Assembly: GCA_021772985.1 (NCBI GenBank)
Contig: JAJFKX010000049.1
Location: forward strand, 62,001 to 126,000
Source: Gammaproteobacteria bacterium
GTDB taxonomy: Bacteria > Pseudomonadota > Gammaproteobacteria > Xanthomonadales > Wenzhouxiangellaceae
Direction: 5' to 3'
DNA length: 64,000 nt
Shown here piece by piece: positions 22,931 to 62,743 of this stretch. Each line of letters starts with the position of its first letter. Positions within the stretch are counted from its first letter, which is position 1. The notes below the pieces were generated by a model. The model ran no database searches, had not been told where the DNA came from, and was given only the letters and a program-made list of their open reading frames with translations. A program made the position numbers and the translations under genes.

Positions 22931-23197
22931 TAGTACTCCTTCAATGTGATTGATGTCGGGTTCAGTTGGTTTATCAGTGTCTGTGGTAAGGCGCGCCTCG
23001 CCGTAAATGGCATGTCCCTTGCAACAGGCGCAACACAGTCCACGGGCACTGATAAACTAACCCGGTGGGTGCTTCCGTGATGTTCCACAGCTGCTTTACA
23101 ACGCTCGAAAAGGGCATGCCATTCGCTTCGCGCTGCGCCTTACTGCAAAACATCACGGGAACGCTGATCTCGGCATTATCAGATTGAAGGAGTACTA
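22931..23197. repeat. Foldback/MITE-like repeat, copy A (267 bp)
   Basis: Perfect 15-bp terminal inverted repeats (TAGTACTCCTTCAAT at 22931-22945, complement at 23183-23197) flank two internal hairpins. Arm 1 has the 11-bp stem GTTTATCAGTG/CACTGATAAAC (22969-22979 and 23047-23057). Arm 2 has the 10-bp stem CCGTGATGTT/AACATCACGG (23075-23084 and 23149-23158). The ends plus two arms make a three-way junction. No transposase and no clear target duplication are seen. Homologous copies are at 33614-33877 and 54587-54687. A frame on the minus strand is open across the whole element and ends at 22974. Confidence 0.85.
23187..23192 (+). promoter_or_regulatory. pabB Shine-Dalgarno lying inside the repeat terminus
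   Basis: AAGGAG, a full-strength ribosome site, is part of the right terminal inverted repeat of copy A. It stands 9 bases before the ATG at 23202 and selects that codon over the TTG at 23184, which would overlap the site itself. Confidence 0.7.
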
Positions 23198-33546: not shown

Positions 33547-33613
33547 TGTTGCTATTGCATTTATTAACAGATTAATTCTGCATGCATTGCAGCGCTGAAT
33601 ACGCTATCCAGGC

Positions 33614-33877
33614 AGTACTCTATCCATCTAATAATCACGGGTTCAGTGGGTTTGTCAGTGCTCGTGGCTAGGCGCGATTGGCCGGTAATGGTCAGCCCTT
33701 GCCAACAATCGCAACGCAGTCAACGGGTGCTGACAAATCCACCCCAAGGGCGCTGCTGTGCTGCTCCGCCACGTTGTTACAGCACTTGATAATGGCTGGC
33801 CATTGTCTGCGAGCTGTGCCTGCTGGCGAAACAGCACAGCAACGCTGAATCCGTTATTATTAGATGGATAGAGTACT
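33614..33877. repeat. Foldback/MITE-like repeat, copy B (264 bp)
   Basis: Perfect 22-bp terminal inverted repeats, beginning AGTACTCTATCCATCTAATA, lie at 33614-33635 and 33856-33877. Inner stems correspond to those of copy A: TTTGTCAG/CTGACAAA (33651-33658 and 33730-33737) and TGCTGTGCTG/CAGCACAGCA (33754-33763 and 33832-33841). It aligns with copy A without gaps over the 73-codon frame, yet many stem bases differ in compensated pairs. It fills most of the 386-bp gap between dinB and the DUF6580 gene. The minus-strand frame is also open here and ends at 33655. Confidence 0.82.
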
Positions 33878-33932
33878 AGTTTATTGCCACACACACTTTA
33901 TAATTGTGCCAACCAACAGGTCGAATATTGTC

Positions 33933-43375: not shown

Positions 43376-43562
43376 GCGTCCTCCACCAATGCCGCTGCAA
43401 AATCGGTGACCTTGAACCAAAGGTTCAGGTGGGTTGGAACTTGCAGCCATCAGGCTTTTCGCGCCAGGGCGAACATGCTCACCGGCTGTTCAGTTACCGT
43501 CCCGAGGTCGACGTATAGGGACAAGGCATCTGTGACGTTACTGGCGTACATCGCAGAGGACG
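43376..43562 (-). ncRNA. ssrS: 6S RNA
   Basis: Regulatory RNA that binds the sigma70 RNA polymerase holoenzyme. The minus-strand sequence matches conserved 6S blocks: opening CCTCTGCGATGTACGCC, the central GCCGGTGAGCATGTTCG, the 3' arm ACCTTTGGTTCAAGG and closing GCGGCATTGGTGGAGG, which pairs with the 5' end. Length about 187 nt against 184 in E. coli. Ends are approximate to within five bases. It stands between zapA and fau. Confidence 0.9.
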
Positions 43563-53500: not shown

Positions 53501-54589
53501 CAGAAATTCCGGCCGATCACCGAAGTGCTGGCGACAGAACTGGCCAGTCTGACCGGAAATAGGGGCGATAATTTACTTTGGGATGAATCAGTGCTGCCGG
53601 CGCATTTGCGGATGCGTATACAGTTGATGGATGAGCATGGAAAAGAGCTGGCCAGCAGCCGTAACCTGGATGCATTACGCAGCCGGTTTGGCAACCAGGC
53701 ACAGCAGGTATTCATGCGTGATCAGGGTCGCGACTTCGAGCGTAATGGCATTGCCAACTGGGATTTTGGCGATTTGCCTGACACTGTTATCACGCCATCA
53801 GGGGTCAAAGCCTGGCCGGCATTAACCGACCAGGGAGATGTTTGTGGGTTGCGATTATTCGACAACCCCGATGAGGCCTGGACGAGTCAGCAGGCAGGTC
53901 TGCAGATTCTGGTGCAAAAAGCACTACAACAAAAAGTCAGCTATATCCACAAAAGTCACGGTTTTACACGGGATATGCAATTACAGGCGCAACGATTGGG
54001 TGGCTGGCAGAATCTGAGAGATGATTTGCTGCATTCGGTTTTTAGCACTTTGCTACTCGAATACGATGTCGGAACACAAGCAGAATATGAGCAAATGGTG
54101 GAACAGCTGCAGGTGGTTCTGGTCACAGCATGGCAGCAGCGAGTCAAATTGATGCAGCCGGTGTTGAACTATTATCAGCAAGCCAATAGATGCTTAAGCA
54201 AAGCCTTTGCGAGTAAGTATCCGACCGCTTGGAATGATGCCCGAGGCCAAGTTGACGACCTGGTTTATCCAGGTGTATTTCGTGACTTGGGCTGGCATGC
54301 CTTACAGCATTACCCACGTTATCTTCAGGCGTTGGTTGAGCGTTTGCAACGCTTACCGGTGGATCCGCAGAAAGACCGCGAACGCCAGCAACAGGTTGAG
54401 CAATATTGGCAACATTATTTGGATTTTCTGGAACAGGGTGGCGAATATACCGATGAATTGGATCGATACCGTTGGTTGCTCGAAGAATTTCGGGTATCGT
54501 TATTTGCTCAACAGCTGGGCACAAATGGAAAGGTCTCAGTGCAGCGATTGCAAAAAGCGTGGCAACAGGTGCTGCTAAACAATGGCTAG
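50585..54589 (+). CDS. hrpA: ATP-dependent RNA helicase HrpA
   Basis: DEAH-box helicase involved in ribosome rescue and RNA processing. Motifs: GDTGSGKSTQLPK, CTQPRRIAARSV, DEAHERSLNVDF, TSATIDTKRFAEYF and NQRSGRCGRLGPG. DUF3418 and OB-like C-terminal regions follow. Length is 1334 residues, near the E. coli value of 1300. The start ATG 50585 follows an intergenic gap of 88 bp. The stop codon TAG (54587-54589) is also the first three bases of repeat copy C. Confidence 0.95.
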   Translation: MTCSLARDRQAVQYLRQFRAMHQRVRKQPVIASFAADSVLQSDWSWAMRQQARLKRGQGKRQQIEQQLEQRLKDSAERFNRRQASVPAIHCDQQLPISSHAQEITEAIQQHQVIVVAGDTGSGKSTQLPKLCLAAGRGTRGLIGCTQPRRIAARSVGSRVAEELQVKLGGLVGFQVRFTDQTDSQTLIKFMTDGILLAEAQVDRYFDAYDTIIIDEAHERSLNVDFLLGLLKQVLPKRPDLRVIVTSATIDTKRFAEYFDDALIINVEGRTYPVDIRYRPLPEERGERGMYLGIAEAVDELSRIDKHGDMLIFLPGEREIRDTANYLRRRNLRFTEILPLYARLSAKAQMEVFKPGNQRRIVLATNVAETSLTVPRIKFVIDPGLARIGRYSHRSRVQRLPIEPVSQASANQRSGRCGRLGPGIAIRLYDEQDFALREEFTEPEIFRTSLATVILRMLDMRLGKIEHFPFIEPPAQVMISDAMQLLRELQAIESAGEDQQRLTAIGRQLARLPIDVRMARMLVEGHRLDCLAEILILTAILSIQDPRERPLEQAQAADQAHAAVAHPQSDFMSYLKLWATFHQQKQVQGSAALRRWCERNFLSWVRMREWLDLHRQLQHHAAALGWKAKPKLEWNATEQAQIHQALLSGMLSMAGLRDDDEGKSGKSKKSIKSYLGARARRFYIFPGSALVKTSPRWLMTAELVETSRVFARVCAAIKPEWLEQQAAHVLKHQYFDPFWDSKSGRVMGYLQSTLYGLPIVERRKVHYGPHDPVTARRIFIEHALVNAEVDIPAGKTPVFMLKNRLLVESLQQAEHKRRRHDVLERVQSRIQFFSDQIPISIHSVKDFLQWHKTQKNTDQLVYPYAVLLRDEAFLDEQAAYPDQYLCQGQRFELNYQFQPDQTDDGVTIKVPLVHLNILDPAQLSWLVPGLLEDRLAALINSLPKPQRRIFSPAKHFAHAVFERLCWPDAGNDQKFRPITEVLATELASLTGNRGDNLLWDESVLPAHLRMRIQLMDEHGKELASSRNLDALRSRFGNQAQQVFMRDQGRDFERNGIANWDFGDLPDTVITPSGVKAWPALTDQGDVCGLRLFDNPDEAWTSQQAGLQILVQKALQQKVSYIHKSHGFTRDMQLQAQRLGGWQNLRDDLLHSVFSTLLLEYDVGTQAEYEQMVEQLQVVLVTAWQQRVKLMQPVLNYYQQANRCLSKAFASKYPTAWNDARGQVDDLVYPGVFRDLGWHALQHYPRYLQALVERLQRLPVDPQKDRERQQQVEQYWQHYLDFLEQGGEYTDELDRYRWLLEEFRVSLFAQQLGTNGKVSVQRLQKAWQQVLLNNG

Positions 54590-54687
54590 TACTCCTTCAA
54601 TGTAATAAAGTCCGCTTCAGTGTTTTTGTGATGTTTTGCAGTAAGGCGCAACGCGAAAGCTGACATTATTACATTGAAGGATTACTA
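54587..54687. repeat. Foldback/MITE-like repeat, copy C (101 bp, internally deleted)
   Basis: Terminal inverted repeats of 21 bp with one mismatch (54587-54607 and 54667-54687), beginning TAGTACTCCTTCAATGTAAT. The inner 28 bases GTGATGTTTTGCAGTAAGGC onward match the complement of copy A's arm 2 (23131-23158 region) with one difference per about 30 bases. It therefore appears to be copy A's right end in inverted orientation joined to the opposite terminus after an internal deletion. It overlaps the hrpA stop codon and ends 15 bp before relA. Confidence 0.85.
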
Positions 54688-62666: not shown

Positions 62667-62743
62667 CGGAGCGTGGCGCAGCCTGGTAGCGCACCACACT
62701 GGGGGTGTGGGGGTCGGAGGTTCGAATCCTCTCGCTCCGACCA
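62667..62743 (+). tRNA. tRNA-Pro (anticodon GGG)
   Basis: A 77-nt cloverleaf with encoded CCA. The acceptor stem CGGAGCG pairs with CGCTCCG. The anticodon stem CCACA/TGTGG encloses CTGGGGG, giving the anticodon GGG for CCC/CCU codons. The T arm is GGAGGTTCGAATCCTC. Confidence 0.96.

Follow-up and report, generated by a model that had tools for sequence, protein, structure and literature searches.

Bacterial MITEs are usually regarded as decayed, locally distributed transposons. The RUP, Correia/NEMIS and ERIC repeats, which are small, non-coding, folding sequences with TA tips, are mostly about 100–200 bp long and form one long stem-loop, and RUP has been proposed to be moved by IS630-Spn1, as the ends and TA targets of the two agree (PMC2229807; this and the other sources cited were available in part, and statements about them are limited accordingly). 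The elements described here are likewise small, folding and TA-tipped, but they are 265–270 bp long and three-armed, and they have an inverted module that recurs across genera and ends that are specific to sub-families. The CIR repeats of Caulobacter are similar in having two arms joined by a linker and a structure conserved between species; however, they are about 110 bp long, belong to α-proteobacteria and contain a GANTC motif, and the excerpt available lists no terminal inverted repeat and no such outer stem (PMC2229807). REPINs of the REP-RAYT systems also consist of an inverted hairpin pair at a fixed spacing with compensatory change (PMC3116915, PMC3733652), yet REP hairpins are 20–40 bp long and tagged by GTAG, whereas the present elements have modules of about 84 nt, CTAG tips, no Y1 link and a 2-bp duplication. 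In the gammaproteobacterium Coxiella, QMITE1 and QMITE2 are multi-copy folding MITEs of similar size; for QMITE1 the part of the source available reports no orthologues elsewhere, and QMITE2 makes duplications of 7–11 nt (PMC5896051). MITEPsy1 of Pseudomonas syringae shares the CTAG or YTAA target, but has 100 nt, a 4-nt duplication and ends that link it to ISPsy2, and an IS5-type origin has been suggested for it (PMC3189936). The repeats of Thiomargarita, with 10-bp direct repeats or TATAG ends in the portion of the source available (PMC4853749), do not fit the present elements and were rejected.

We did not find the family described in the literature searched, which comprised open-licence PMC papers only. 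It is a mobile, non-coding, MITE-like family, whose members are short, multi-copy, bounded by inverted ends and devoid of an internal transposase gene.

Copies in the window and in related genomes

The window, i.e. the whole stretch of 64,000 nucleotides analysed here, contains three copies, and the repeat family that the initial annotation recognised in it is upheld by the sequences as read and by their folds, which beat 200 of 200 shuffles for each copy (z-scores of -6.2 for copy 1 with DNA parameters, and of -12.8 and -7.4 for copies 2 and 3 with RNA parameters). Copy 1 (22931–23197, + strand), complete from TA to TA, starts with TAGTACTCC, ends with GGAGTACTA and lies between beta-ketoacyl synthase and chorismate-binding genes. 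The left strand of its outer stem, starting with TA (22931–22972, +), is followed by the arm A hairpin module (22973–23055, +; 65.0 bits and E 9.7e-13 with the covariance model R1), then, 19 nt further on, by arm B, the module inverted (23075–23156, -; 65.8 bits, E 6.3e-13), and by the right strand of the outer stem with TA at its end (23157–23197, +). Copy 2, between the genes for a DinB-type polymerase (IMS) and a DUF6580 protein, is also complete, with CA in place of the left TA; its arm A (33654–33736, +; 70.2 bits, E 5.7e-14) is again separated by 19 nt from an inverted arm B (33756–33837, -; 54.9 bits, E 2.2e-10). The limits first given for it, 33614–33877, are better extended by one base on each side to 33613–33878 (+; CA...TA), and those of the other two copies stand. 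Copy 3 (54587–54687, +; 101 bp) lies between HrpA-type helicase and RelA-SpoT genes of the same strand, its initial TAG being the stop codon of the helicase. It retains the outer stem and part of one arm, has no match to R1 and is an internally deleted relative of the long elements.

The same-strand genes on both sides of each copy are as had been noted. Both long copies form three-way junctions of an outer stem and two hairpin arms, the fold already proposed for them, and in both arm B is in addition a diverged inverted copy of arm A, so that R1 detects four modules in the window, two in each long copy. The copies of the window are best explained as older, diverged insertions. A 6S RNA (43376–43562, -) and a tRNA gene (62667–62740, +) are also found in the window.

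BLAST with copy 1 against its own genome returned 16 matches, seven of them near full length, the query included; as this search overlooked the second copy of the window, copy counts are lower bounds. The count of further copies that had been suggested as a check gives at least eight full copies of 266–268 bp once copy 2 is added, with more in relatives. These eight align over 270 columns with a mean column identity of 83% and pairwise identities of 62–97% (mean 76.5%). The end pattern, allowing up to three mismatches, matches 17 times in this genome against none in the reversed control, R1 matches 22 times, and other internally deleted forms are present beside the 101-bp copy of the window (L032). 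In copies with ends of the GTACTCC type at L005, L009 and L013 the right end bears AAGGAG or a similar sequence directly before a start codon, which, judged by eye, may be a ribosome-binding site. The copies at L002 and L004 sit within an inverted repeat of their flanks that, again by eye, may be a terminator hairpin.

A DNA search finds the family in 18 of 61 genomes, its own included, and R1 detects the module in 39 of 61 genomes (own and relatives), with up to 67 matches in one of them. The relatives are inferred to belong to Wenzhouxiangellaceae, since the module coordinates in G028:C82 coincide with those of L198, a Wenzhouxiangella record. In a sample of the class the module is present in 109 of 369 genomes and 87 of 274 genera; at most 12 candidates were scored per genome here, so that counts per genome are lower bounds, and the negative set for R1 consists only of the 260 genomes without a match, with no shuffled-sequence control. 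A degenerate-pattern search of genome contigs yielded at least 112 stretches, the matches listed including Wenzhouxiangella, Lysobacterales, Chromatiales, Thiodiazotropha, Sedimenticola and many gammaproteobacterial MAGs. From these stretches 53 distinct full-length elements of 244–311 bp were drawn, partial and contig-edge matches being excluded. The one-contig genome G022 has nine copies that are 94.8–100% identical, which we count as support for recent amplification, while two records (L252 and L176) have an element at apparently the same place, which implies that some insertions are old and inherited. Rfam 15 gives no match at its gathering score (the best match of the element at a lax threshold has E 0.97), and two GTACTCC-type, one GTGGGCC and one GTGTCC element have no match in plasmid and phage collections, each of the four having been run against one collection only.

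Architecture of the element and covariation of its module

A typical element is about 265–270 bp long, with an outer stem of about 41 nt on each side. In all, 114 of 128 modules form 57 convergent pairs, spaced by exactly 19 nt in 45 of the 57 and by 20–35 nt in the others. Most modules lie 41 nt from the TA tip; where the inner TA of GTAC is chosen, the figure is 38 nt. The left and right ends of one element match on average at 22.9 of 24 positions (34 of the 57 elements, those with TA at both chosen tips), whereas the agreement between left ends taken from different elements is 11.0 of 24, against 11.1 for shuffled flanks; the best offset, often the inner TA of GTAC, was chosen for each element, and the null was treated identically. 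TA is missing at one or both chosen tips in the remaining 23 elements, and four elements have a poor end match of 10–14 of 24 (L200, L195 at 2494, L288 and L291). The sequence of the outer stem drifts while its self-complementarity is kept, and a single plan is combined with unrelated outer stems, among them the GTACTCC, GTGGTCC, GTGGGCC, GTGTACC and GTGTCC types.

In G022, 29 end pairs of the same type lie 270–273 bp apart, CTAG to CTAG (9 GTGGTCC, 11 GTGGGCC and 9 GTGTACC). The exceptions are pairs spaced by 40, 166 and 338 bp, a mixed composite of 111 bp and ends without a partner. The short end pattern by itself is not enriched in this genome (89 matches against 147 in the reversed control), and only the fixed-length pairing counts. 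Some elements have chimeric ends, such as L095 of G022 with one TTAACCCGGC end and one GTGGTCC end, and likewise L383, L392 and L394. A second CTAG-tipped palindromic repeat (CTAGCCCGCATTATTCATGAAT...ATTCATGAATAATGCGGGCTAG) adjoins or is fused with elements of G022 at L094/L095, L383, L384, L387, L392 and L394.

The module itself has 84 nt and, in both arms, comprises GC-AAGGCGC, a variable stem, an apical AATGGC...CCTT hairpin, CAAG and AACGC. An alignment of 26 modules (out of 31 that fit the motif, five having been removed by hand) has 96.6% of its cells paired and 19 of 28 pairs changed on both sides, a result equalled by none of 500 shuffles. Some of the variation of helix 1 in it stems from the difference between modules of arm A and arm B type, and helix 3 varies independently. 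A larger alignment of 128 matches from 60 hand-chosen sources is 94.6% paired, with 26 of 28 pairs double-changed and again none of 500 shuffles equal to it, against 31–41% paired in slid controls; as its rows were fitted to the R1 model, its pair counts are biased towards that model. The fold is kept by compensatory change over many genera. Short extra insertions occur at fixed places in the arms, e.g. of about 66 bp in L165 (6992–7328), and the arms of L227, L231 and L247 bear at fixed places a 22-nt extra piece with AGTAGGCGCTTTAGGCG.

The complementarity of the stems could in principle be a product of mutation alone, with replication slippage perfecting palindromes and the core unselected. 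Such a process would yield near-perfect but unrelated stems, and the outer stems, near-perfect though unrelated between elements, are just what it predicts; but it would not keep the unpaired bases, the imperfections, the spacing and the tip distance that the arms retain, and we regard it as unlikely.

Wobble pairs give the module a direction. When each arm is read in the module's own orientation, G.T pairs exceed A.C pairs over the whole arms (112 vs 30 and 114 vs 36), and also in helix 3, whose sequence is not conserved (25 vs 0 and 19 vs 2). Helix 2 has the opposite bias (0 vs 22 and 2 vs 23), so that its drawn pairing may be wrong in part. One arm being inverted relative to the other, there is one favoured hairpin on either strand of the element; this fits either single-stranded DNA read on each strand or an RNA that works irrespective of direction, and a fixed RNA whose two arms are equivalent does not fit the wobble bias. 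It is therefore conceivable that the core is an orientation-proof RNA, the first arm of which would always form a correctly oriented hairpin that stabilises, terminates or regulates a transcript, with mobility merely spreading the element. The excess of G.T over A.C in both arms and the strong RNA folds of copies 2 and 3 are compatible with this, as is the gene context: of the 53 elements, 46 have 400-base flanks on both sides, and after 15 without a near open reading frame are dropped, 21 of the 31 scorable ones lie between co-directional genes, 7 between convergent and 3 between divergent ones. However, these convergent and divergent gaps are occupied too, one insertion lies inside a reading frame, no Rfam family corresponds to the element and there are no expression data, so that we consider this reading improbable, if less so than the palindrome-perfecting one. 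Among the 21 co-directional cases arm A comes first in 10 and arm B in 11, and this lack of preference, together with the spread over all three kinds of gap, weakens the structured regulatory repeat, which the initial annotation had kept as an alternative, as a primary cause; a secondary effect on neighbouring genes is not excluded.

Insertion sites and the search for a transposase

For four sites of G008 the joined flanks were sought in the congeneric genome G004, which yielded two of them, both as empty sites. At the first, G008 has CACC-TG-[element]-TG-GCAGC and G004 CACC-AA-GCAGC, and the target is not seen as TA (AA in the empty site, TG in the filled one). At the second, TAT-TA-[element]-TA-GGTGTAT in G008 corresponds to TAT-CA-GGTGTAT in G004, where the site lies within an open frame of 661 codons, the insertion in G008 leading to a stop right after the same residues (ENY). 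A nested copy in G051 supplies a third comparison, with GCGCT-TA-[element]-TG-ACCCCAGGG in L300 and L301 and GCGCC-TA-ACTCCAGGG in L298. Together these filled and empty sites indicate that insertion duplicates two bases (TA/TA, TG/TG and TA/TG), which is how IS630/Tc1-mariner elements behave. The absence of a clear target duplication asserted in the initial annotation does not hold: 2 bp are duplicated at the tips, and this was hidden because TA forms part of the apparent end.

In G001, of the window's genus, the element is absent from the pstB/phoU gap and from the fabF/pabB gap, the latter being one of the orthologous gaps in which the initial annotation suggested looking for an empty site; one module lies further downstream (L097). 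A rubredoxin gene adjoins one insertion of G022, and 22 loci with that gene have no module. Both the G001 gaps and the rubredoxin loci are too diverged for an exact joint. A conserved gene leader is rejected, since the genes next to the copies are unrelated and no copy occupies the orthologous gaps that were checked; the outcome that would have pointed to it, no further copies and the same places occupied in every relative, did not occur. With the additional copies, the nine near-identical ones of G022 and two empty sites with a 2-bp duplication, the inference of a non-autonomous mobile element made at the outset is substantiated.

The tips are mostly CTAG, with two TTAA-like flanks among the cases scored. 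As MITEPsy1 targets CTAG or YTAA and has the table entry 'IS5?' in the portion of the source available (PMC3189936), mobilisation by an IS5-type transposase with such targets, as proposed for that element, comes into question and is not ruled out on gene content. Against it, MITEPsy1 duplicates 4 nt, while the present sites fit two, and the second G008 site argues against a 4-bp duplication because it has T as the outer base on the left but C in front of the TA on the right; there is in our estimate little chance that it is correct. For IS630, duplication of TA is described (PMC2170065), and a preference for CTAG is known to us from a title in the reference list of the same paper.

DDE_3 transposases were found in one of six genomes searched, namely G022, which has four copies with TTAACCCGGC ends, and the one copy that was classified belongs to the IS630 family. 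No DDE_3 gene was found in the window's own genome, G007, G008, G029 or G031, though these have copies of the element, which implies that the mover was lost, is of another family or was missed. The TTAACCCGGC ends also bound elements with modules: L195 combines the two ends with two modules and L239 combines them with a single module, and L162, L170, L311 and L318 have one such end beside a module. Over the 12 bases of the IS630 left end that follow the ten search bases, L095, L311 and L318 match at 10, L239 at 8, L162 and L170 at 6 and L195 at 3, with 8 for the right end of IS630 itself. As far as these terminal sequences go, the TTAACCCGGC sub-family shares its ends with the intact IS630 copies of G022, though L239, L162, L170 and L195 match poorly beyond the search bases; IS630 as mover of the end type of the window remains an inference. 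An IS630 copy of G022 lies between two blocks (L072, 515–908 and 2121–3358) of a tandem array with a period of 70–71 and a constant 37-bp part (GTCTTAATCCC...) that has a CRISPR-like look.

End patterns revealed no transposase with the end type of the window (GTACTCC/GTGGTCC) in its own genome or G022, nor did the 17 unpaired ends of G022 that were read reveal an autonomous version; against element lengths of 244–311 bp, no long transposase-bearing version was found. A scan of 376 loci for inverted TAG/CTA ends 600–4000 bases apart, loci below 1500 being skipped, returned only REP-type pairs at five Y1_Tnp loci. These are L333, L335, L336, L341 and L347, which have inverted TAGGTCGG... or TAGGGTGCC... 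flanking repeats of the ordinary REP type.

The same genes bear on whether the family is REPIN-like, in which case a Y1 tyrosine transposase (RAYT) would recognise the module and mobilise the inverted hairpin pair in single-stranded DNA form. REPINs are, in the part of the source available, inverted hairpin pairs with compensatory changes (PMC3116915), the wobble pairs in each arm of the module favour one strand, and Y1_Tnp genes occur in 19 of 43 genomes of the taxonomic family. But genomes rich in modules lack a Y1_Tnp match (G008 with 67 module matches, G021 with 25, and G020 and G002 with 20 each), and of 35 Y1_Tnp matches in all, 30 loci were fetched and only one (L318) has a module nearby. 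The repeats at the five loci above differ in sequence from the module; moreover, two bases are duplicated at insertion, which Y1 insertion is not known to do. A REPIN-like origin thus appears quite unlikely.

Proposed mechanism and meaning

We consider it likely, though by no means certain, that these elements form a structure-conserved superfamily of IS630-type MITEs. The element would insert at TA, mostly within CTAG, with duplication of two bases, a step observed at three sites with the enzyme inferred. Inside the tips, as seen in the alignments, there would follow the drifting self-complementary outer stem and two inverted 84-nt modules, usually 19 nt apart. The outer ends may be exchanged to fit the available transposase while the core is kept; this inferred exchange seems likely because the ends differ by sub-family and one sub-family matches an intact IS630. 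The core most likely aids propagation by folding into a hairpin of single-stranded DNA on each strand, but this is inferred and only weakly supported. A bolder proposal, which we put forward tentatively as a possibility that is probably not correct in full, is a class-wide superfamily defined by its shape, with inverted modules maintained by selection across many genera at a fixed spacing, transposases borrowed through exchange of the outer ends, hairpins, one for each strand, read in single-stranded form by a host or transposition protein, and the core as the heritable unit.

What distinguishes this family is the conserved three-armed core and its class-wide spread, on top of what is otherwise the behaviour of an IS630-type MITE: one plan and one module recur across 109 of 369 genomes of the class, with ends that are wholly different between sub-families. 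The R1 model accounts for many unannotated intergenic repeats of environmental Gammaproteobacteria, some of them at contig ends. If the core is the heritable unit and its terminal repeats are replaceable, this would be the reverse of an ordinary MITE. If the core is selected, the family would show how a non-autonomous element survives the loss of any single transposase, and the module would be a starting point for identifying its reader protein.
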